Assembly: GCA_014360055.1 (NCBI GenBank)
Contig: JACIYH010000023.1
Location: 1-33,301 of the forward strand
Direction: 5' to 3'
Source of the DNA: Bacillota bacterium
Lineage (GTDB): Bacteria > Bacillota > Sulfobacillia > JACIYH01
DNA: 33,301 nt
In this document: positions 22,412 through 33,163 of the stretch, piece by piece
Position numbering within the stretch: the stretch's first letter is position 1
How the letters are laid out: each line of letters begins with the position of its first letter
Notes under the pieces: generated by a model
The model's input: the letters and a program-made list of their open reading frames with translations, nothing else
Told to the model about the DNA's origin: nothing
Database searches by the model: none
Translations under genes and position numbers: made by a program

Positions 22412-24991
22412 TCACTGCAGGTAAATGTGTTCCACCTCGGTAAGCAGGTCTGGGGTGTCCAGCTTCCCCCGGTATGCCACCCTGCCTTCCTTGAGAACGT
22501 AACAGGTCACGCCCCAAGAAGCGACCATCCGCGCCGCCTGCTCGACCAGCAGCACGGCGGTACCCCGGGCATTGATCTCGCGCACGTGATCCAGCACGGC
22601 AGCGGCCAGGGCCGGGCTCAAGCCCATGGTGGGTTCGTCCAGGCACAGCAGCCTGGGACGCCCGACCAGCGCCCTGGCGAGGGCCAGCATCTGCTGTTCC
22701 CCTCCCGACAGGCTGCCCGCCGGCTGGTGGAGCCTTTCCTTCAGGCGCGGGAACAACTCCAGCACCCCTTCCAGCGCCTCCATCCCTTCCGCCGCCCGCA
22801 CCCGGTGCGCCGGCGGTGCAGGTTCCGGCCGGATCCCCCCGGGGCCAGGCTGTCCCCGAGCCACGGTCAGGCAGCCCGCCCCCAGCTCCAGGTTCTCTTT
22901 CACGGTAAGGCGCCCGAAGATGCGCCTGCCCTCAGGCACCAGTGCCGCGCCCGCCCGCACGACGTCCTCCGGCCGCCAGCCTACCACGCGCCTGCCGGCC
23001 AGCGAGATGTCACCGGAGAAAACGCGCGCCGACCCGAAGATGGCCCTGAGCAGGGTGCTCTTGCCGGCAGCGTTGGCCCCGAGGAGGCAGGCCAACTCAC
23101 CCTCCCCGACCTGCAGGTCGACCCCCTGCAGCACCGGTCGGCTGCCGTACCCCGCCACCAGCCGAGATACTTCCAGTACGGGCGGCCGGGCCTCGCGGTG
23201 GTCCGCCGGCACCTCCGCGTGGGGGCGACGTGGCGCGGGGCGAGCAGCAGCACCTTGTTCCTGACCCAGGTAGGAGCGGGCCACTTCCGGGTGGGAGAGT
23301 ACGTCCCCCGGCGATCCCTCCACCAGTACGCGACCTTCCGCCATGGCCAGCACCCGGTGGGCAACGCGTCTGACCACCTCCATGCGGTGCTCGATAAGCA
23401 GGACGGCCACGCCGGCATCGGCCAGACGCCTCACCGCCGTGCACAGTTCGTCGACTTCCTGCTCGGTCATCCCTGCGGCCGGTTCGTCCAGCAGGAGAAC
23501 CCGGGGGGCCCCGGCCAGCGCGCGCAATACCTCCAGCTTGCGGCGGTCCGCGTAGGTGAGCGCCGCCGCAGTCACCGCCCCCCCGGAGCCGTCGACTTCC
23601 AGTTGCAGACCGGGCAGGGGCTGAGCCGGTGTGCCTTCACACCGGCGGTCGGCCCCGCGGAGAGCGAATTCCCCGGCGGCCAGGTTGGCGGCGGGTGTGA
23701 GGGAGAGAAACAGCCGCGGGTTCTGGAAGCTCCTCATAACTCCGAGGCTCGCGCGCCGGTACGGCGGCAGGCCATCCAGCGGTACGGGCTCGGGCTGCCC
23801 GTCCACGGTCGCCCGCACGCGCCCGGCGTCGGGTGCCAGATACCCCGATATGACGTCCACCAGGGTGCTCTTCCCGGCGCCGTTGGGGCCGATGACAGCC
23901 AGTACCTCCCCCCGCCGCAACTGCAGGGAGACACGGTCGAGGGCCACCACCCCTCCGAACCGCTTGCTCACACCCTCCACGGCCAGGACCACGTCCGCCC
24001 GACAGGACTGCCGCGCGCGGGTAGCGCGGTGGGTTCGCACGGGGGCGGTCCGGTGGGGGCGGGCCGGGATGAGGCCGTGGGGCCGGGCCTGCATGAGTCC
24101 CACCAGGAGCAGCCCGTAGATCACCATGCGGTAGGAAGCGTAACCCCTGAGCAACTCGGGGAGGATCACCAGGGTGGCCGCACCCAACACTGCCCCCAGC
24201 GGACTGCCCGCGCCGCCCAGCACGGCCATGCAGAATATGGTCACCACCTCGGCCATGGAAAAGGTCTGCGGGAAAACCGCCCCCTGCCAGGAGGCGAAGA
24301 AGACACCGGCCACCCCGGCGATGGCGGCGCCGGCGGCGAAGGCGGCCAGCTTGTACTTCACGGGGTTGATCCCGCAGGCCATGGCCCCCAACTCATCGTC
24401 CCGCAAAGCCTTCCAGGCCAGTCCCGGGCGGGAGGCATCCAGCCGGCAGTACACCAGGTAGACGAGCACGGCGAGGGTGACCATCAGGTAGTACCACTGC
24501 CCCGGCCCTTCCACCACACGCCCGGCGATACGGGGACTGTCGATGCGGATGATGCCGTTGGGCCCGTTGGTGAGGTTGAAGGGCCGGTCCAGGTTCATGA
24601 GCAGGATGCGGATGATCTCGCCGAACCCCAGGGTGACCACGGCCAGGTAGTCACCCCGCAGGCGCAGCACGGGGAAACCCAACACAACCCCGGCCAGGGC
24701 GGCGAGGGCAGCCCCCAGGGGTACGATGACCCAGAAGTTAACGTGCATCCCCAGGTGGGGCGAAGCCAGCAGCCCGCAGGTGTAGGCACCGATGGCGTAG
24801 AACCCGATGTACCCCAGGTCGAGCAGGCCGGCCTGGCCCACCACCACGTTCAGGCCCAGCACCAGCGTCACATACAGGGCTATGGAGGTGGCCACCCGCA
24901 GGTGATAGGCGTTGCCGTCCAACAGGGGGAACACCGCCAGGAACAGCAGCAACCCCGGCACCATCGTGCGGCGCAGATAGAGTTTGCTCAC
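22412..24991 (-). CDS. LivM-LivG-LivF triple fusion: amino-acid ABC permease with two ATPase domains
   Basis: One 859-residue polypeptide holds three proteins normally made separately. Residues 1-305 are the LivM permease with about eight to ten membrane helices and the motif GLNVVVGQAGLLDLGYIGFYAIGAY. After an Arg/His/Pro-rich linker, residues 334-578 are LivG: Walker A GPNGAGKST (368-376), a divergent signature LTYADRRKLEVLRAL, and Walker B LLLDEPAAGM. Residues 604-859 are LivF: Walker A GANAAGKST (638-646), LSGGEQQ signature, LLCLDEPTMGLS, and a Pro/Gly-rich insertion before the signature. The frame is continuous with no stops, so this is not a sequencing join of separate ORFs unless two frameshifts fell exactly in linkers. 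GTG start overlaps the LivH stop by 4 nt (GTGA). Confidence 0.9.
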   Translation of the reverse strand: MSKLYLRRTMVPGLLLFLAVFPLLDGNAYHLRVATSIALYVTLVLGLNVVVGQAGLLDLGYIGFYAIGAYTCGLLASPHLGMHVNFWVIVPLGAALAALAGVVLGFPVLRLRGDYLAVVTLGFGEIIRILLMNLDRPFNLTNGPNGIIRIDSPRIAGRVVEGPGQWYYLMVTLAVLVYLVYCRLDASRPGLAWKALRDDELGAMACGINPVKYKLAAFAAGAAIAGVAGVFFASWQGAVFPQTFSMAEVVTIFCMAVLGGAGSPLGAVLGAATLVILPELLRGYASYRMVIYGLLLVGLMQARPHGLIPARPHRTAPVRTHRATRARQSCRADVVLAVEGVSKRFGGVVALDRVSLQLRRGEVLAVIGPNGAGKSTLVDVISGYLAPDAGRVRATVDGQPEPVPLDGLPPYRRASLGVMRSFQNPRLFLSLTPAANLAAGEFALRGADRRCEGTPAQPLPGLQLEVDGSGGAVTAAALTYADRRKLEVLRALAGAPRVLLLDEPAAGMTEQEVDELCTAVRRLADAGVAVLLIEHRMEVVRRVAHRVLAMAEGRVLVEGSPGDVLSHPEVARSYLGQEQGAAARPAPRRPHAEVPADHREARPPVLEVSRLVAGYGSRPVLQGVDLQVGEGELACLLGANAAGKSTLLRAIFGSARVFSGDISLAGRRVVGWRPEDVVRAGAALVPEGRRIFGRLTVKENLELGAGCLTVARGQPGPGGIRPEPAPPAHRVRAAEGMEALEGVLELFPRLKERLHQPAGSLSGGEQQMLALARALVGRPRLLCLDEPTMGLSPALAAAVLDHVREINARGTAVLLVEQAARMVASWGVTCYVLKEGRVAYRGKLDTPDLLTEVEHIYLQ

Positions 24992-25902
24992 GCCCGCTGC
25001 CCCCTCGCCCGGCCAAGGATCCCCTGGGGCCTCAGCACCAGGGTCAGGATGAGCAGGGAAAAGGCTATCACGTCCCGGTAGACGGGAGACACGAAGGCCA
25101 CTCCCAGGCTCTCCAGCAACCCCAGTACTACTCCCCCCACCATGGCACCGGGAAGGTTCCCGATCCCCCCCAGGACGCAGGCGGTAAAGGCCTTCATCCC
25201 GGCCGAGAAGCCCATGTAGAAGTCGACCTGGCTGTAGAGCAGCCCCACCATGACCCCGCCCACCCCCGCCAGCAGGGAACCCAGCAGGAAGGCGGCGGCC
25301 ACCACCCGGTTCACCGAGACCCCGGTCCAGGCCGCCGCCTCAGGGTCTTCCGCCACCGCCCGCATGGCCTTACCCGTGTAAGTGTGGCGGACCAGGTAGT
25401 CCAGCACCAGCATGAGCAGCGCCGCCACCGCCACCACCATCAGTCTCAGGAAGGAAATGAAGGTGCCCCCCAGCATGACCCCTGCGTCAGGGGAGACGAT
25501 GGCCGAAGTGAGATAGGTCTTGGCCCTGCCCCCCGTGGCGAGCATGACAGCGTTCTGCAGGAACATGGAGACGCCCAGGGCAGCGATCAGGGGGGCCAGG
25601 CGGGGGGCCCGGCGCAGGGGGCGATAGGCGAAGCGCTCGGTGGCTACCCCCACCACCGCCGCCGTCAGGCTGGCCGCCACCGTCACGGGGAGGAGGAGGG
25701 TGGGACCGGACAGGAAGGGCAGGAGGAGGCCCATGGCCAGCCAGCCGCCAAAGGCCCCCACCATGAACACCTCCCCGTGGGCGAAGTTGAGCATTCCCAG
25801 GGTGCCGTACACCATGGAGTACCCGATGGCAATGAGGCCGTACACCGATCCCAGGCTTATACCGTTTACGATCTGCTGCGGTACCTGCGCGAAGAAGGAC
25901 AC
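24988..25902 (-). CDS. livH: Branched-chain amino-acid-type ABC permease LivH
   Basis: The protein is an integral membrane permease of about 304 residues with the LivH signatures QQIVNGISLGSVYGLIAIGYSMVYG, LNFAHGEVFM and the EAA-like RAVAEDPEAAAWTGVSVNRV followed by FTACVLGGIGNLPGA. It would form the channel with the LivM part of the fused downstream protein. GTG 25902 has GGGAGG just upstream; a GTG at 25914 adds four residues. It follows livK after 97 nt of sequence without a gene. The T-box leader upstream of livK should control it too. Confidence 0.92.
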   Translation of the reverse strand: MSFFAQVPQQIVNGISLGSVYGLIAIGYSMVYGTLGMLNFAHGEVFMVGAFGGWLAMGLLLPFLSGPTLLLPVTVAASLTAAVVGVATERFAYRPLRRAPRLAPLIAALGVSMFLQNAVMLATGGRAKTYLTSAIVSPDAGVMLGGTFISFLRLMVVAVAALLMLVLDYLVRHTYTGKAMRAVAEDPEAAAWTGVSVNRVVAAAFLLGSLLAGVGGVMVGLLYSQVDFYMGFSAGMKAFTACVLGGIGNLPGAMVGGVVLGLLESLGVAFVSPVYRDVIAFSLLILTLVLRPQGILGRARGQRA

Positions 25903-25999
25903 GCTGCCTCCCACCGTTCCCCGAAACAGGCCTGCTCAGGTTTTCCTGCACTTCCCCGAACGCCGGGCGACCACCTTGAGCGCCGGCTGCGACGTCCGG

Positions 26000-27235
26000 T
26001 TACTTGCCGCCTATGGGGTAGGCCTTGACCTCCACGAAATCGGGGCCCTTGACCTGGAGGACGTAGATACTGCCTCCCAGCACGTCTCCTTTACTGTCGA
26101 AGCTCACCGGGAACCCCAGGATGCCCCGGTAGCCGCTGGTGGCTGCCACCGCGTCCCGCACCGCCGCGCGGTCGACCTTGCCGTCCTTGACCCCGGCCTT
26201 GCGGAGGGCAGCGATGAGGATGTTGGTGGCCTCGTAGCTCTGGCCCGAGAATATGCTCATGGCCCCGTGCTTCGCCTCGAAGGCCTTCACGAAGCCGGCC
26301 GCCTCGGGCACCTCCCTCACGTCCCGGCCGATGGCGGTGACGTAGAAGCCCTCGGCTGCGCCCTGGGAGCCCGCTATGAGCTGGTCCTTTTCTTTGAGCC
26401 CGTCACCGCCCATGAACTTCGTCTGGATCTTCATGGACCGGGCCTGGATGAGCAGGGCGGCCGCCTGGGCGGGGTTGGGCAGGGCCAGGTACACCAGGTC
26501 GGGAGCCTCCTGCCGCACCCGGGTGAGGATGGCGGAGAAATCCCGGTCGGTGGGCGCGATCTGCCCCCGGGTGACGGTGGCCCCCAGTTCCTTGAGGGCG
26601 ATCTCCACCTGGTCGGCCAGCCCCTGACCGTAGGTGCCCTTGTCGTCGATCATGTAGACCTTGCGGGCCTTGAGTTCCTCGACGATGAAGCGCGCCGCCG
26701 CCGGACCCTGGGCGTCATCCCGCGGGCAGACCCGGAACATGACCCGGTAGCCCTGCTCCGTGAGGGCCGGGTTGGTGGCTGACTGGCTGATGATCACCAG
26801 GCCGGCCTTCTCGTAGATGGGCAGCGCCGCGTTCACGCAGTTGGAGTTCATGGGACCGATCACGCCGACGATGGTGGGGTCGGCGGCGAACTTCTGCGCC
26901 ACCAGGGTTGCCTGGGCGGCGTCGCCGGCGTCGTCGCCCACCTCCACCTCGATCCGGTAGCCGTCCACGCCCCCTGCCTGGTTGGCCTCCTCCACCGCCA
27001 TACGGATGGCGTTCAGGGAATCCAGCCCGATCTTGGACAGGTCCCCCGTATACGGACCCGCCGCGCCAATGCGGATGACGCCCTTGGGCTCCCCTCCGGC
27101 ACCGCCCTGTCCGGACGGCGCCCCCCCGGTGCACGCGGTCGCCACCAGGGCCAGCACCAGTACAGCCACTGCCAACCCCGTCACCCCGAACCTGTTCACC
27201 GCAGCCACCTGCCTCACTGCCACTGTCCGCCTCAC
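26000..27235 (-). CDS. livK: Liv-type amino-acid-binding lipoprotein
   Basis: The 411-residue protein has a lipoprotein signal peptide: basic N-terminus, hydrophobic core at about residues 17-32, and lipobox ATAC with Cys35, followed by a Gly/Ser linker. The mature part is a periplasmic-binding-protein type I (LivK) fold: IRIGAAGPYTGDLSKIGLDSLNAIRMA, VGVIGPMNSNC, IISQSATNPALTEQG and a C-terminal FSGQSYEATNILIAAL. It would capture the substrate at the cell surface. The start GTG 27235 is set by GGAGG 8 nt upstream, which itself lies directly behind the T-box terminator. The leader suggests tryptophan rather than Leu/Ile/Val as the regulating amino acid. Confidence 0.92.
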   Translation of the reverse strand: MRRTVAVRQVAAVNRFGVTGLAVAVLVLALVATACTGGAPSGQGGAGGEPKGVIRIGAAGPYTGDLSKIGLDSLNAIRMAVEEANQAGGVDGYRIEVEVGDDAGDAAQATLVAQKFAADPTIVGVIGPMNSNCVNAALPIYEKAGLVIISQSATNPALTEQGYRVMFRVCPRDDAQGPAAARFIVEELKARKVYMIDDKGTYGQGLADQVEIALKELGATVTRGQIAPTDRDFSAILTRVRQEAPDLVYLALPNPAQAAALLIQARSMKIQTKFMGGDGLKEKDQLIAGSQGAAEGFYVTAIGRDVREVPEAAGFVKAFEAKHGAMSIFSGQSYEATNILIAALRKAGVKDGKVDRAAVRDAVAATSGYRGILGFPVSFDSKGDVLGGSIYVLQVKGPDFVEVKAYPIGGK

Positions 27236-27244
27236 TTTGACCAC

Positions 27245-27632
27245 CTCCGGAAAAAATTGAAGGCCTTTCGTCAGGGACGAAAGGCCTTCGCTTCCGCGGT
27301 GCCACCCTTCTTGGGCCCGGCCCCCGCGCCGGACCCCACTCTTTCGGGTACGGGACCTCTCCGGTCCGATACCCTATCCCGCTAACGGGGGAATCCGTCA
27401 ACCGCTACTTGCCGGGGCCACACGTACGGGCGCTCGCCACCCCCGCGCTCACGCGCCGAACAGCCCGCTGTGCCGGGCGCTCCCTCCGCTGAGCGTCACG
27501 CCCCCCAGGCGTTCGCGTTGCCTCTCCCGGGCCCATTCACACGGGCAACTCTGCACCGGCCTCCCACCCTCCGCCGGCTCGCTGGGCATATGCCCGGCTA
27601 CTCTCCCCGATCATCGAGCTTGCTATAGGTTT
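27245..27632 (-). promoter_or_regulatory. T-box leader, probably tRNA-Trp responsive
   Basis: The minus-strand leader has all T-box parts. Stem I contains the AGTA of the specifier loop (27602-27599) and the distal GAGCCGG...GGTGGGAGGCCGG region, with the 3' specifier strand GTGAATGGGCCCGGGAG (27540-27524). The helix flanks (TCGGG with CCCGG; CGGGCA with TGCCCG) place the specifier codon at 27535-27533, reading TGG (Trp) right after GAA. A GGGTA...TACCC hairpin (27346-27374) precedes the T-box AGGGTGGCACCGCGG (27308-27294), whose bulge TGGC requires a tRNA ending GCCA, that is discriminator G73. tRNA-Trp has G73; tRNA-Leu, -Ile and -Val normally have A73 and tRNA-Gly U73. Uncharged tRNA would allow transcription into livK-livH-livMGF. 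Confidence 0.9.
27251..27289 (-). terminator. Intrinsic terminator of the T-box leader
   Basis: On the minus strand GAAGGCCTTTCGTC and GACGAAAGGCCTTC form a perfect 14-bp stem with a 3-nt loop (27259-27289), followed by AATTTTTT (27258-27251). The ribosome binding site of livK comes a few bases after the T run. Its 5' arm follows the T-box sequence, as expected for the mutually exclusive antiterminator. Confidence 0.93.
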
Positions 27633-27638
27633 GCAGCT

Positions 27639-27667
27639 AATGTAGCAGGTGTCGGCCCCCATGTCAA
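27639..27667 (-). promoter_or_regulatory. Promoter of the T-box/liv operon
   Basis: On the minus strand a perfect TTGACA (27667-27662) and TACATT (27644-27639) lie 17 bp apart, giving a start near 27632 just before stem I. The -35 box contains the TGA stop codon of the upstream amidohydrolase gene, so the liv unit has its own promoter although it follows that gene directly. Confidence 0.75.
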
Positions 27668-29490
27668 GTACCTCGTCCGAGGACGCGGCCGGGCCGGGCA
27701 TCGTGCTGCAGGCCGTCTTCCACCACCACCTGGCCGTTCACCAGAACCCACCTGATCCCCTTCGGGTAGCGGCGGGGTTCCAGGTAATCGCCTCCTTCGT
27801 CCACGCTGGCGGGGTCGAAGACCACCAGGTCGGCGAAGGCCCCCTCGCGGATGACGCCCCTGTCGTCGAAGCCCAGGGCCCGGGCCGGCCGCGAGGTAAT
27901 GCGGGCGATGCCCTCTTCCAGGGACGGTCCCGCGTAGCGGCGCAGGTACCTGGGGAAGACTCCGTAGGTGTTGGGGTGAGGGAGGAAGTAGGGCGGGTGG
28001 CGCACTTCCCAGCGGTCGTCGAAGATGAAGGTGTCACTGCAGGCCATGGAACGGGGGTGACTGAAGAAGACACCCAGCGCCTCCTCCCGGCCCAGCATCC
28101 CCATGCGAGCCCGCAGGCGCGGGTAGCGGCGCACGAGGTCGAACAGGGTGGCCAGGGGGTCGGCAACCCTCCCAGCCGGGCCGCGGCCGGCCGTCTCGCG
28201 GGCGCCCGCGCCGGGGTCGCGCGCCCCGTCGCGGGGGTCGGAGGCCGTCTCGCGGGCGATGGCCGCCAGGCTCTTACCCTCCAGGGAGGCGTCTTCGCAC
28301 TGCAGGATCACGATGGCCTCCGCCCAGCGAGGGTCGGCCTTGGGGTTGAGGGAATACCACTTGCCCGCCTCGATGTACTCCCTGATTTCGGCCTGGTAGT
28401 CCGGGGCGGCCAGGAGTTCGGCCAGCCTTTCCGGTGAACCGGCGTCCCGCAGCCAGGGCGCCAGCAGGGATACCAGGTAGGGGGCAATCACCACTCCCCC
28501 GTCCACGTTGGGGATTACGTCAAACGACACATCCACCCCCCGCCGCAGACCTTCATCCAGTATCTCCAGGGTGGCCTCCGCCGCCGCCCGCAGCAGAGAC
28601 GCGGGCGGATCGGGGAAGATGCGGTACGCTGGCAAGAGGTGGGATACCTGAACCCTGACCCCTGCCTGACGCCCGATTTCCACCGCCTCCTTCAGTCCCT
28701 GCGCCAGGGCCGGTTGGGGAGTCCCCTTGCGGATGCCCGTCCGGCGCCAGTGGGTAGCGTATATCCCCCCGAACTCGGGGAGCACCCGGGCCAGTTCCAC
28801 GATCTCAGACGTCTCCGCGTACCCGCCGGGTTCGTAGTCCAGGCCGGTGGACATCCCCCGGGCCCCCTCCTCCAGGGCCTGCCGGAGAAGGTCACGCATG
28901 GCGGAAATCTCCTCAGGCCGGGCGGGCCGGGAGTAGTCGGTCCCCATCACCATCGTGCGCAGGGCGTTGTGCCCCACAAGAGGGACGTAGTTGACCACCG
29001 GGCGGGCCGCCTCCACCCGGGCCAGGAATTCCCCAAAGGACCGCCAGTCTATGTCCAGTCCGTGCTTCTCCGCCGCCTTGCGGCGCACCGCTTCCAGGGG
29101 CCGCATGGTGGGCTCGTAGTACTTGTACGGGGCCACCTCGTGCCACCAGTCGAACTCCCAAAACGAGAGCACCCACTGGTCGCCCAGCGGGGCGGGCGAA
29201 AAGCCGCAGTTGCCCCCCACGAAGGTGGTGATGCCCTGTCGGACCGCACTGGGTGCCTCGGGGTAGAGGAGCAGGGTCTCGTCCCCGTGGGAGTGGATGT
29301 CGATGAACCCGGGGGAAATGGCCAGGCCAGCGGCATCCAGTACACGGCCGGCGCGCACCCCCTCGGGTACCGGGAGCGCACCCACTGCGGCGATGCGGTC
29401 ACCCCGTACGCCCACCCACCCGGGAAACCCGGCCGCACCCGTCCCGTCCAGCACCTGCCCGCCTGACACGATGATGTCGAAATCTCTCAC
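27664..29490 (-). CDS. D-aminoacylase / N-acyl-D-amino-acid deacylase family amidohydrolase
   Basis: The 608-residue cytosolic metal hydrolase belongs to the amidohydrolase_3 group of N-acyl-D-amino-acid deacylases. Metal-binding features are GFIDIHSHGD (His66, His68), the bridging Cys95 in VGGNCGFSPAP, GHNALR, STGLDYEPG, IYATHWR, VQVSHLLP and the catalytic Asp in ACSDTF. The C-terminal segment ends with GAFADLVVFDP, as usual. It would free D-amino acids from N-acyl forms or act on D-amino-acid peptides. An Ala/Gly/Arg-rich insertion (RETASDPRDGARDPGAGARE) interrupts the C-terminal half. GTG 29490 has GGGAGGGA 5-8 nt upstream; ATG 29505 is in frame but overlaps that site. It follows the peptide permease genes, suggesting it processes imported substrates. 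Confidence 0.87.
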   Translation of the reverse strand: MRDFDIIVSGGQVLDGTGAAGFPGWVGVRGDRIAAVGALPVPEGVRAGRVLDAAGLAISPGFIDIHSHGDETLLLYPEAPSAVRQGITTFVGGNCGFSPAPLGDQWVLSFWEFDWWHEVAPYKYYEPTMRPLEAVRRKAAEKHGLDIDWRSFGEFLARVEAARPVVNYVPLVGHNALRTMVMGTDYSRPARPEEISAMRDLLRQALEEGARGMSTGLDYEPGGYAETSEIVELARVLPEFGGIYATHWRRTGIRKGTPQPALAQGLKEAVEIGRQAGVRVQVSHLLPAYRIFPDPPASLLRAAAEATLEILDEGLRRGVDVSFDVIPNVDGGVVIAPYLVSLLAPWLRDAGSPERLAELLAAPDYQAEIREYIEAGKWYSLNPKADPRWAEAIVILQCEDASLEGKSLAAIARETASDPRDGARDPGAGARETAGRGPAGRVADPLATLFDLVRRYPRLRARMGMLGREEALGVFFSHPRSMACSDTFIFDDRWEVRHPPYFLPHPNTYGVFPRYLRRYAGPSLEEGIARITSRPARALGFDDRGVIREGAFADLVVFDPASVDEGGDYLEPRRYPKGIRWVLVNGQVVVEDGLQHDARPGRVLGRGT

Positions 29491-29519
29491 TCTTATCCCT
29501 CCCATCCGGTACCGGCCGG

Positions 29520-29538
29520 AACTGACCGATCGGCAGTT
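29520..29538. promoter_or_regulatory. Near-perfect 19-bp palindrome, possible operator
   Basis: AACTGACCGATCGGCAGTT is an inverted repeat except for one extra base (AACTG-a-CCGA / TCGG-CAGTT). It lies in the 108-bp gap between the permease gene and the amidohydrolase start. It might bind a dimeric regulator; there is no supporting copy elsewhere in the window. Confidence 0.3.
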
Positions 29539-29598
29539 CGCCGCCGGGACGGCCCCGACCCTCGCCGCCGGATTGCACCGCCCGTAGCGGGAGGCGCC

Positions 29599-30423
29599 TC
29601 AGACCTTGAGGCGGGGATCCAGCAGGTCGCGCAGCCCGTCTCCCAGCAGGTTGATGCCCAGTACCGCCACCACGATGGCGATGCCGGGGAAGATGTAAAG
29701 CCACCAGGCCAGGCCCAGCCACTGCCGGCCCGCGTTGATCATGGCCCCCCACTCGGGCTGGGGAGGCTGCGCACCCAATCCCAGAAAAGACAGGGCGGCC
29801 CCCATGAGGATGGCACTGGCGAAGTGGAGGGTCCCCAGTACGATGATGGTGCTGGCCACGTTGGGCAGTACGTGCCGCCAGAGGATGCGCCGGTTGGGAG
29901 CCCCGGCCGCGGAGGCCGCTTCCACGAACTCCTTCTCGCGCAGGGGCAGGACGGCACTGTGCACCACGCGGGAGAAGCCGGGCACCATGGAAAGCACCAC
30001 CGCCAGCATGGCGTTGCGCAGGGAGGGACCGAGGACGGCCACGATCACGATGGCGAACAGCATGGTGGGAAACGCCAGCCACAGGTCGACCAGCCGCGCG
30101 ATGAACACCCCCAGCCGGGGGTAGTACCCCCACAGCACGCCCACCCCCGTGCCCAGGATGACCGTCAGCACCGTGGCCACCAGGCCCATCTCGAGGGAGA
30201 TGCGCGAACCCCACACGATGCGGCTGAAGACGTCCCGACCGAACTCGTCCGTGCCGCAGAGGTGCCTGAAGGAGGGCCCCTGCAGGCGCTCCTCCACCTG
30301 CATGTCCAGGGGTCCGTAGGGCGCCAGGTAGGGTGCCAGCAGGGCGCACATCACCACCGCCAGCACCATCAGTGCCCCCACCACCATGCCCTTTTGCCGT
30401 CCCACACGCCGCAAAACCGTCAT
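29599..30423 (-). CDS. dppC: Peptide/nickel-type ABC permease DppC
   Basis: The 274-residue membrane protein has the DppC/OppC layout: one N-terminal helix (GALMVLAVVMCALLAPYLAPYG), the HLCGTDEFGRDVFSRIVWGSRIS block that precedes the five-helix BPD_transp_1 domain, and the EAA loop EFVEAASAAGAPNRRILWRHVLPN. It pairs with DppB in the membrane. The gene starts 1 nt after the dppB stop region. No dppD or dppF ATPase gene follows, so the ATP-hydrolysing subunits must come from elsewhere. Confidence 0.92.
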   Translation of the reverse strand: MTVLRRVGRQKGMVVGALMVLAVVMCALLAPYLAPYGPLDMQVEERLQGPSFRHLCGTDEFGRDVFSRIVWGSRISLEMGLVATVLTVILGTGVGVLWGYYPRLGVFIARLVDLWLAFPTMLFAIVIVAVLGPSLRNAMLAVVLSMVPGFSRVVHSAVLPLREKEFVEAASAAGAPNRRILWRHVLPNVASTIIVLGTLHFASAILMGAALSFLGLGAQPPQPEWGAMINAGRQWLGLAWWLYIFPGIAIVVAVLGINLLGDGLRDLLDPRLKV

Positions 30424-30424
30424 C

Positions 30425-31405
30425 TCATCCCTTCACCCGGGGATCCAGGCTGCCGTACAGCAGATCCACCATGAGGTTCACCATCACGAAGGTAGCGGCC
30501 ACCACCAGCACCCCTCCCTGTACCACGGGGAAATCGCGGGTGAGGATACCCTTCACCACGTAGGAACCCACCCCGGGTAGGGCAAAAACCGTCTCGGTGA
30601 CGATGGCACCCCCCAGCAGGTAGCCCAGGTCCAGGCCCACCATGGTCACCACCGGGATGAGGGCGTTCTTGAGGGCGTGCCGGTACAGCACCGCCCGCTC
30701 GGAAAGTCCCTTGGAGCGGGCGGTACGGATGTAGTCCTGCCCCAGCACCTCCAGCAGGCTGGAGCGCGTCACGCGAGCGATGTACGCCGCAGAGAGGATG
30801 CCCAGGGTGAAGGCCGGCAGCACCAGATGGTAGGCCCCCTGGTAGCCACTGATGGGGAACCAGCCCAGCACGAAGCCGAACAGCCACATGAGGGCCAGGG
30901 CCAGCCAGAAGGAGGGCAACGACATGCCCAGGACCGCCACCGAGGTGGTGAGGTAGTCGGTGGCCGAACCCCGGCGTACGGCGGCCAGGATGCCCGCGGT
31001 GACGCCGAGGAAGGCCTCGATGAGCAGGGCGTAGATGGCCAGCTGGATGGTGACGCGGTATCTCTGCAGCAACTCCTGTGCCACCGGCACGCCCGTCAGT
31101 AGCGACCGCCCCAGGTCACCCCGGCCCAGGTTGACGAAGAACCGGGCCAGTTGCAGGTGGGCGGGCAGATCCAGGCCCAGTTCACGCCGCAGCGCGGCCA
31201 CCGCCTCGGGCGTGGCCCGCTCCCCCAACATCTGCCGCACCGGGTCGCCCGGCACCATGTGGATCATCAGGAAGACGATTATCGATACCCCGATCAGCAC
31301 CAGCAGGCCCTGAGCCAGCCGGCGGGCTACAAACTGGTAGCGCAGAGGCAGTACCCCCCGCCCTGGGGAAGGGCTCCGGCCGGCGCGACGCCGCCGGGGC
31401 GCCAA
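30425..31405 (-). CDS. dppB: Peptide/nickel-type ABC permease DppB
   Basis: The protein of up to 326 residues is a DppB-type permease with about six membrane helices, the typical N-terminal block FVARRLAQGLLVLIGVSIIVFLMIHMVPGDPVRQMLG, and the EAA loop DYIRTARSKGLSERAVLYRHALKNALIPVV. The frame's first start is at 31405, but the first about 25 residues are Arg/Pro-rich and differ from the family; the conserved part starts at LRYQFVARR, so a start nearer 31340 is likely. It forms the translocation pore with DppC for peptides delivered by the upstream binding protein. Confidence 0.9.
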   Translation of the reverse strand: MAPRRRRAGRSPSPGRGVLPLRYQFVARRLAQGLLVLIGVSIIVFLMIHMVPGDPVRQMLGERATPEAVAALRRELGLDLPAHLQLARFFVNLGRGDLGRSLLTGVPVAQELLQRYRVTIQLAIYALLIEAFLGVTAGILAAVRRGSATDYLTTSVAVLGMSLPSFWLALALMWLFGFVLGWFPISGYQGAYHLVLPAFTLGILSAAYIARVTRSSLLEVLGQDYIRTARSKGLSERAVLYRHALKNALIPVVTMVGLDLGYLLGGAIVTETVFALPGVGSYVVKGILTRDFPVVQGGVLVVAATFVMVNLMVDLLYGSLDPRVKG

Positions 31406-31426
31406 CGCCGGCCGGAGCCACCCTCC

Positions 31427-33007
31427 CTACTTCTCGATTGAGATGTCGTTGTAGAGCACGCCCACGAAGGGATTGTAGCGCAGGTCCTTCACCCAGGTGC
31501 GGGCGGCCACGAAGCCCTTGCGCACCACCAGCGGCACCCAGGGGGCGCCGTCCAGGATGGCCTTCTGCGCCTGCTCGTAGTACTGGGCCCGCTGGGCGGC
31601 ATCCACCGTGGTGCGCCCCTTTACCAGCAGGTCGTCCAGTTCGTCCGTGCCCCAGTGCATGCGCACGCGCCCGCTGTCCTTGTGGAACAAGAAGTACAGG
31701 ATGTCCGGATCGCTCCAGCCGTACATCCACAGGATGGACTGGTGCAGCCCCTTGGGCGTGCCGTCCCGGATGGCAGCATCCTCCATGACCTGGATGTCCA
31801 CCTTCGCCCCCACGGCGGCAACCTGCTTCTGGATGAGCTGGGCTACCCTCTGATCCACGGGGTCGTTGGTGATCCAGAGGGAGAACTCCAGGGCCTTGCC
31901 ATCCTTCTCCACGATGCCGTCGCCGTTGGTGTCCTTCCACCCCGCCTCCGCCAGCACCTGCTTCGCCCGCTCGGGGTTGTAGCCGTACTCCGCCCTGGCC
32001 TGCTCTTCCAGGGCTTTGGAGTGACCGGGCAGGTGGTGGGGCAGGGCGGTGTAGACCGGGGTGGCCAGGCCGTCGTAGCCCACCCGGGCGATCTCGTCCC
32101 GGTCGATGGCCAGGTTCATGGCCTGCCGCACCTTGACATCGTCAAAGGGCCATTTCTGGCAGTTGAAGCCGAAGTAGCGGATACCGTTTTCGGGGAACTC
32201 CACTACCTGGATGTCCTTGTTCTGCTTCAGCTTCGCCACCTGCTGGGGGGGCACCGTGAGGAGCAGGTCGATGTTGCCCTTCTCCAGTTCCAGGATACGG
32301 GTGGCCTCATCCGGGATAATGCGGAAGATGAGCTTGTCCACCAGAGGAGCACCCTGGTTCTTGTAGAAGGGGGGAGCCCACTTGTAATCCGGGTTCCTCG
32401 CGAAGACGATCTCGGACCCGCGGGTGTGGGAGACGAACTTGAACGGGCCCGCCCCCACCGGGGCCTGGCCGTAATCCTCCCCCTTCTTCTTAAGGGCGTC
32501 GGGGGACATGAAGGAGGCGAAGCTCTGGGCGAAGGTGGTCCACAGCGACACGTCCACCTGGGAGCAGGTGATCTGCACGGTGCGTTCGTCCAGCACCTTG
32601 ATGTCGCTGATGGAACTGACCATCTCCCGGTTGAGCCCCTTAGGGTCATCCCGCATGCGCTCGAGACGGAACTTCACCGCTTCGGCGTCCAGCGCCGTGC
32701 CGTCGTGGAACTTCAGGCCGGGCTTGAGCTTGAAGGTGATCACCTTCCCGTCCGGCGACACCTGCCACGACTCCGCCATGTTGGGCACGAACTTGCCGTC
32801 GAAATCGATGGAAACCAGACCGTAGTCGTACAACACGAAGAACGGGTCCTCAATCCAGGTGGTACGGTCGATGTCGAAGGTGGCCGGGTCGTTGACTATG
32901 CCCACCCTGAGCACCTTCTCCTGGGCAGCCGGCTTTCCACCGCACCCCGCCACCACCAGGCTCAGGGCGAGTGCTGCCACCACCGCTACCATGCTCAGTC
33001 TCTTCAC
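31427..33007 (-). CDS. dppA: Peptide/nickel-type extracellular solute-binding lipoprotein (SBP family 5)
   Basis: The 526-residue protein has a lipoprotein signal peptide (basic MKRLS, hydrophobic core, lipobox VAGC with Cys22) and an SBP_bac_5 domain: LRVGIVNDPATFDI, MAESWQVSPDGKVITFKLKPGLKFHDGTALDAEAVKFRLERM, GAGPFKFVSHTRG, and VRQAMNLAIDRDEIARVGYDGLATPVYTALP. It binds peptides or related ligands outside the membrane and starts the transporter operon. GTG 33007 is set by GGAGGGAGGAG about 5 nt upstream. A second in-frame start, ATG 33073 with GGAGG before it, would add 22 residues ahead of the signal peptide and looks less likely. N-acyl-D-amino acids or D-amino-acid peptides are a possible ligand, given the downstream amidohydrolase. 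Confidence 0.92.
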   Translation of the reverse strand: MKRLSMVAVVAALALSLVVAGCGGKPAAQEKVLRVGIVNDPATFDIDRTTWIEDPFFVLYDYGLVSIDFDGKFVPNMAESWQVSPDGKVITFKLKPGLKFHDGTALDAEAVKFRLERMRDDPKGLNREMVSSISDIKVLDERTVQITCSQVDVSLWTTFAQSFASFMSPDALKKKGEDYGQAPVGAGPFKFVSHTRGSEIVFARNPDYKWAPPFYKNQGAPLVDKLIFRIIPDEATRILELEKGNIDLLLTVPPQQVAKLKQNKDIQVVEFPENGIRYFGFNCQKWPFDDVKVRQAMNLAIDRDEIARVGYDGLATPVYTALPHHLPGHSKALEEQARAEYGYNPERAKQVLAEAGWKDTNGDGIVEKDGKALEFSLWITNDPVDQRVAQLIQKQVAAVGAKVDIQVMEDAAIRDGTPKGLHQSILWMYGWSDPDILYFLFHKDSGRVRMHWGTDELDDLLVKGRTTVDAAQRAQYYEQAQKAILDGAPWVPLVVRKGFVAARTWVKDLRYNPFVGVLYNDISIEK

Positions 33008-33133
33008 CGTGTCTCCTCCCTCCAGGCCGCTGTGGAGAACGATCCTGCGACTGACGGTTTCGGCGACCCCCATCCCCACCTCCCGCGATGCTGCATTTTC
33101 GATACAGTGCATAAATGAAGCGGTTGTTTTTAG

Positions 33134-33163
33134 AGTATAAAACTCCCGGTGGACAAATGTCAA
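33134..33163 (-). promoter_or_regulatory. Promoter of the peptide transporter-amidohydrolase operon
   Basis: On the minus strand a perfect TTGACA (33163-33158) and TATACT (33139-33134) are 18 bp apart. The start of transcription should be near 33127, leaving about 120 nt of leader before GTG 33007. No riboswitch class was recognised in that leader. Confidence 0.75.

Follow-up and report, generated by a model that had tools for sequence, protein, structure and literature searches.

The window, by which we mean the whole 33,301-nucleotide stretch of Bacillota DNA that was analyzed, carries on its minus strand a set of three genes for an ABC importer of the HAAT/Liv type (TC 3.A.1.4). The first encodes a livK-type substrate-binding lipoprotein (26000–27235; PF13458) with a GTG start at 27235 and a GGAGG Shine-Dalgarno sequence at 27248–27244. 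It is followed by a livH-type permease gene (24988–25914; PF02653) and by a single frame for an 859-residue chain (22412–24991) in which LivM, LivG, and LivF, a permease and two ATPases, are fused. All parts of an importer of this class are present: a Peripla_BP_6 domain, two BPD_transp_2 domains, and two ABC_tran domains. These matches agree with the original prediction, which named LivK, LivH, and a fused LivMGF as the products under control. Matches to the NCBIfam LivK and LivH models fell below their curated cut-offs, and the only domains matched by LivK were PF13458, PF01094, and PF13433; its nearest relatives by sequence are leucine- and amino-acid-binding proteins. Upstream of the operon and its leader, also on the minus strand, the interval 27664–33163 contains Opp/Dpp-type peptide transporter genes and an amidohydrolase gene (27664–29505) related to N-acyl-D-amino-acid deacylases.

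A complete T-box leader of the transcriptional class lies between a promoter and livK, in the interval that separates the end of the amidohydrolase gene from the livK start; all of its features are on the minus strand. The sigma-70-type promoter (TTGACA-17-TACATT with a TG before the -10, 27639–27667) has 10 of 12 matches, was found 0 times in 50 shuffles, and predicts a transcription start at about 27632. The leader RNA itself (RF00230, 27270–27623) is made up of Stem I, a long Stem II/IIA region, the CCGTTA element, Stem III, and the antiterminator. Stem I (27516–27620), with an AGUA/GAA loop-E motif, was obtained from the RF00230 model, from single-strand folding, and from alignment folding, and when eight aligned orthologous leaders were folded de novo with no prior structure, 14 of its 23 pairs showed compensatory changes. 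In the RF00230 alignment the antiterminator, AGGGUGGCACCGCGG...CGUCCCU, occupies 27273–27308. An intrinsic terminator with a 14-pair stem (27289–27259) and a run of six U residues follows at 27253–27289 (folding z -3.4; 0.4 expected by chance). It overlaps the 3′ half of the antiterminator (CGUCCCU), making the two structures upstream of livK mutually exclusive, and the Shine-Dalgarno sequence and then the GTG start come directly 3′ of it. The T-box leader that had been proposed for 27245–27632 is recovered by a covariance model, and its limits match the predicted start site and the ribosome-binding site.

The RF00230 match has a score of 40 bits (E 1.9e-7 by cmscan in a 571-base search, 2.2e-7 genome-wide) and spans positions 1–219 of the 219 in the model. 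At the Rfam gathering threshold (93 bits for this family) there were zero matches in the window; the T-box was recovered by a permissive search, in which it was the only credible match. Such scores are common in this genome: 11 of its 12 T-boxes at E ≤ 0.001 are under the gathering score, including the pheS, thrS, alaS, valS, and metG leaders. We thus attribute the low score of the livK leader to its GC-rich sequence and long insertions rather than to a poor leader.

The specifier bulge has the form GAA-UGG-N in Stem I as drawn by the Rfam model, by single-strand folding, and by the eight-leader alignment. In the window it reads GAAUGGG, followed by a CCCGG lower helix, which puts the UGG (Trp) codon at 27533–27535. 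The TBDB rule, by which the codon takes up positions 2–4 from the 3′ end of the bulge (PMC7778990), also gives UGG for this leader. The frame was calibrated by applying the pattern 'codon, five bases, NGAG' to the remaining 11 T-boxes in this genome, with the downstream genes identified by eye from their translations. This reading gave UGC (Cys) for cysE, CCC (Pro) for a proline racemase, UCC (Ser) for a serine-type aminotransferase, UUC (Phe) for DAHP synthase and pheS, ACC (Thr) for thrS, GCC (Ala) for alaS, GUC (Val) for valS, and AUG (Met) for metG, and it matched the amino acid wherever the downstream gene was recognizable. Codon and variable bulge base also went together across eight related genomes and two extra loci (Trp with C in 14/14, Thr with A in 6/6, Phe with U in 6/6, His with G in 2/2, and Asp with C in 2/2). 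The bulge in the window is UGGC (27304–27301), which can pair with the GCCA at the 3′ end of tRNA-Trp, and the genome's own tRNA-Trp(CCA) ends in CCU-G-CCA, that is, with the G73 that pairs with this bulge. Its tRNA-Gly has U73, which rules out a Gly specifier (GGG). An Asn specifier (AAU) is very unlikely, even with G73 on tRNA-Asn, since the codon would overlap the loop-E GAA and AAU accounts for 2% of known Asn specifiers (PMC7778990). The original prediction had set a UGG codon directly after the loop-E GAA, paired the UGGC bulge with a G73 on tRNA-Trp, seen a conflict between Gly and the bulge, and kept Asn as the less likely option; all of this has held up.

Comparison with relatives was carried out in 154 genomes of the class, where exactly seven others have a LivK orthologue (56–85% identity over the alignment); the search returned no matches between E 1e-126 and 1e-70. 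In 7/7 of these a T-box with UGG and UGGC lies directly upstream. Scanning 84,980 species genomes added a second Bacillota set with LivK orthologues. The conservation of UGG and UGGC in orthologous livK leaders, proposed earlier as a check, is found throughout: a T-box is present in 32/32 testable Bacillota loci, the codon is UGG in 31/31 that are readable, and the bulge is UGGC in 31 and UGGU in one. At four loci (L069–L072) the T-box is separated from livK by about 3.2 kb and lies before genes for an Fe-S protein and an aldehyde ferredoxin oxidoreductase. No T-box was found within 900 bases of livK in two Spirochaetota orthologues and one Actinomycetota relative. A variant Stem I, with GAG-UGG for GAA-UGG and GATC for AGTA on the other side, was observed at L069–L072, L075, L077, L080, L082–L084, L086, L087, L089, L095, and L098, so that the usual loop-E signature is replaced throughout a lineage.

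In the LivK tree, 35 proteins form one clade (support 100/100) separate from E. coli LivJ/LivK, Atu2422, and the paralogues of the same genome, and wherever a clade member is readable, its LivM-LivG-LivF is one open frame. In the own-genome paralogues L066 and L067, by comparison, LivM, LivG, and LivF are unfused. At the paralogous loci L049–L051 no T-box was found, which places them outside T-box regulation, and the readable ones are unfused. The residues aligned to Trp18, Cys78, Tyr202, and Glu226 of E. coli LivK, which we take to line the ligand pocket of LivJ/LivK, are Ile, Asn, Pro/Ala/Ser, and Asp across the clade, the Cys78 equivalent being Thr in two Spirochaetota members and Asn otherwise. 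Judging from the alignment, the smaller residues at positions 18 and 202 would give space for a larger side chain. AlphaFold and Foldseek applied to LivK returned the expected Liv fold alone and did not discriminate between ligands.

Leaders with UGG and UGGC also precede the trp operon in genomes that have the transporter (G002, G026, and G028), as well as trpS (G026 and G045) and a trpB-like gene (G029), which makes the transporter part of a tryptophan regulon. The genome of the window retains trp biosynthesis genes; its trp operon lies on contig C128, and because this contig stops close to the trpE start, a T-box for that operon is missing from the assembly. On contig C128 of G000 (2392–2626; L004), a Ser T-box (UCC/UGGC) and an aminotransferase gene were seen directly downstream of trpC-trpB on the same strand. 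Indole-3-glycerol phosphate synthase (IGPS, trpC) is missing from 28 of the 32 T-box-bearing genomes. Within the class it is absent from 4/8 carriers against a background of 30/112, and outside the class from 24/24, these 24 genomes being mutually related and of unreported completeness. With in-class loss not clearly above background and the remaining genomes related, the pattern is suggestive, and we rejected it as stand-alone proof of tryptophan uptake. In the majority of T-box-bearing genomes that have no IGPS, trpB is missing as well. Indole or anthranilate would be unusable there after import, which leaves tryptophan or an indole keto acid; the combined loss of trpC and trpB points to tryptophan itself as the cargo. 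In G166, G170, and G172 (the genomes of L083, L087, and L089), trpB scored over the cut-off with no IGPS while relatives have neither, and these genomes possibly salvage indole.

An operon with a tungsten aldehyde ferredoxin oxidoreductase belongs to the same regulon. UGG/UGGC T-boxes were found before a gene for a TIGR04076-ferredoxin fusion at L069–L072, L253 (7436–8164 and 5568–7454), L259, and L267. The oxidoreductase gene comes after the fusion in L069–L071 and in G011, and is partly masked in L072. A related Fe-S gene stands under its own UGG T-box in G011, G059, and G084, with the oxidoreductase in G011. A third UGG/UGGC T-box in G011 (L253 2455–4287; C23:68954–70786) precedes genes for a DcuC/YfcC-type carrier and an amidohydrolase. 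Through these T-boxes, tryptophan starvation would turn on the Liv-type importer together with the tungsten oxidoreductase and its Fe-S partner. One speculative and rather doubtful use of this pairing, in a group of largely uncultured Bacillota, would be the salvage of an aromatic acid or tryptophan derivative and its reductive conversion to tryptophan by cells that lack the trp pathway. The linked oxidoreductase widens the known tryptophan regulon by an enzyme without a known role in tryptophan supply.

A separate observation concerns the leuS T-box leader, which in 7/8 genomes examined contains a tRNA-Ala(GGC) gene between Stem I and the antiterminator (L003 1738–1813, equivalent to G000 C123:10291–10366; L144, L145, L147, L153, L162, and L181). 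In L003 the tRNA gene lies within the Stem III loop, and leuS is downstream of such leaders wherever the sequence is readable. No description of a tRNA-Ala gene within a leuS T-box leader was found in a literature search.

Taken together, the data are best explained by a transcription-attenuating tRNA-Trp T-box that controls a livK-livH-livMGF operon for a Liv/HAAT-family importer with high affinity for tryptophan, a reading to which we assign a probability of roughly 0.8. When tryptophan runs short, uncharged tRNA-Trp would accumulate, its CCA anticodon pairing with the UGG specifier and its terminal GCCA with the UGGC bulge. The docked tRNA would hold the antiterminator and allow livKHMGF to be transcribed, while charged tRNA-Trp could not fill the bulge, letting the 14-pair terminator form and stop transcription before livK. 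The data show the RNA anatomy with its codon and discriminator match, as well as the operon and the conservation; switching in vivo would be expected from the way T-boxes operate. A T-box indicates the regulating amino acid and not the range of substrates. The pairing of a UGG T-box with this transporter in 32/32 testable Bacillota loci suggests that the family most likely imports tryptophan, and we infer L-tryptophan to be the main cargo. The original prediction of a tryptophan, indole-precursor, or aromatic transporter, made from the regulation, is strengthened in its tryptophan/aromatic part by the frequent loss of trp genes, and weakened for indole precursors where trpB is missing; in both respects it is a statement about a probable cargo.

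An unlikely alternative is that the T-box is truly Trp-specific while the importer is broad, taking up aromatic or neutral amino acids (Trp, Phe, Tyr, perhaps Leu) under control of the scarcest one. Relatives of LivK are often broad, the nearest proteins of solved structure accept several amino acids, and Wels et al. argue along the same lines for LIVCS carriers (PMC2494555). However, UGG alone occurs in the 31 readable leaders, where some drift to Phe or Tyr codons might be expected, and the LivK pocket is strictly conserved and distinct. Less probable still is a cargo such as indole-3-pyruvate, indole-3-acetate, anthranilate, or indole that is turned into tryptophan in the cell. HAAT proteins that bind aromatic acids do exist, and the aldehyde ferredoxin oxidoreductase and Fe-S partner in the L069–L072 operon, like the T-box-controlled Fe-S gene of G011, G059, and G084, could fit such a route, but most of the genomes without IGPS could not use indole or anthranilate for want of trpB, and no genes of an indolepyruvate or indoleacetate pathway were traced. 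That the specifier was misread and the transporter serves Asn or Gly is highly improbable: tRNA-Asn shares G73, but UGG comes out of the de novo structure, the TBDB offset, and the 11-leader calibration alike, tRNA-Gly has U73, and UGG/UGGC leaders stand before trpE operons and trpS in the same genomes. Equally negligible is a non-functional remnant before an ordinary branched-chain amino acid transporter, for which the low Rfam score might speak, given the compensatory changes in Stem I, the intact terminator and bulge, and a T-box kept in every testable Bacillota orthologue.

A whole branch of proteins that now carry a branched-chain amino acid transporter annotation probably constitutes a family of tryptophan importers, marked by the M-G-F fusion, an Ile in place of Trp18 of LivK, and the UGG T-box. 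Tryptophan import would account for the supply of the most expensive amino acid in many anaerobic Bacillota that lack trpC, and the window operon offers a directly testable example of a substrate predicted from a riboswitch. Control of a Liv-type operon, or of an aldehyde ferredoxin oxidoreductase, by a Trp T-box was not described in any paper found by a literature search that was largely without subscription papers. In Bacillota and Chloroflexi, trp operons, trpS, and trpB have Trp T-boxes whose codon and bulge are identical to those of the window leader, but they control biosynthesis or charging, whereas the window T-box controls uptake genes. E. coli LivKHMGF/LivJ shares the K-H-M-G-F gene order and the fold (LivK is about 32% identical); the window operon differs in having M, G, and F in one chain, in being under a Trp T-box, and in the pocket changes W18 to I, C78 to N, Y202 to P/A/S, and E226 to D. 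NSS-family carriers under Trp, Phe, and Leu T-boxes in the Bacillus cereus group (PMC2494555) are likewise amino acid uptake systems that can stand under a Trp T-box, but they are secondary sodium symporters of an unrelated protein family. A close parallel in regulation is TrpXYZ of Streptococcus suis, a tryptophan ABC importer behind a transcriptional leader with UGG and UGGC, as in the window, that is induced by tryptophan limitation in a tryptophan auxotroph (PMC9382623). TrpXYZ consists of three genes, for the binding protein TrpX, the permease TrpY, and the ATPase TrpZ, whereas the window has LivK, LivH, and fused LivMGF, and its binding protein matches Peripla_BP_6 in the domain search and is therefore not TrpX-like. 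The best reading is that control of uptake by a Trp T-box is already known from TrpXYZ and the NSS carriers, and that its use on a transporter of the Liv/HAAT type is new relative to TrpXYZ.
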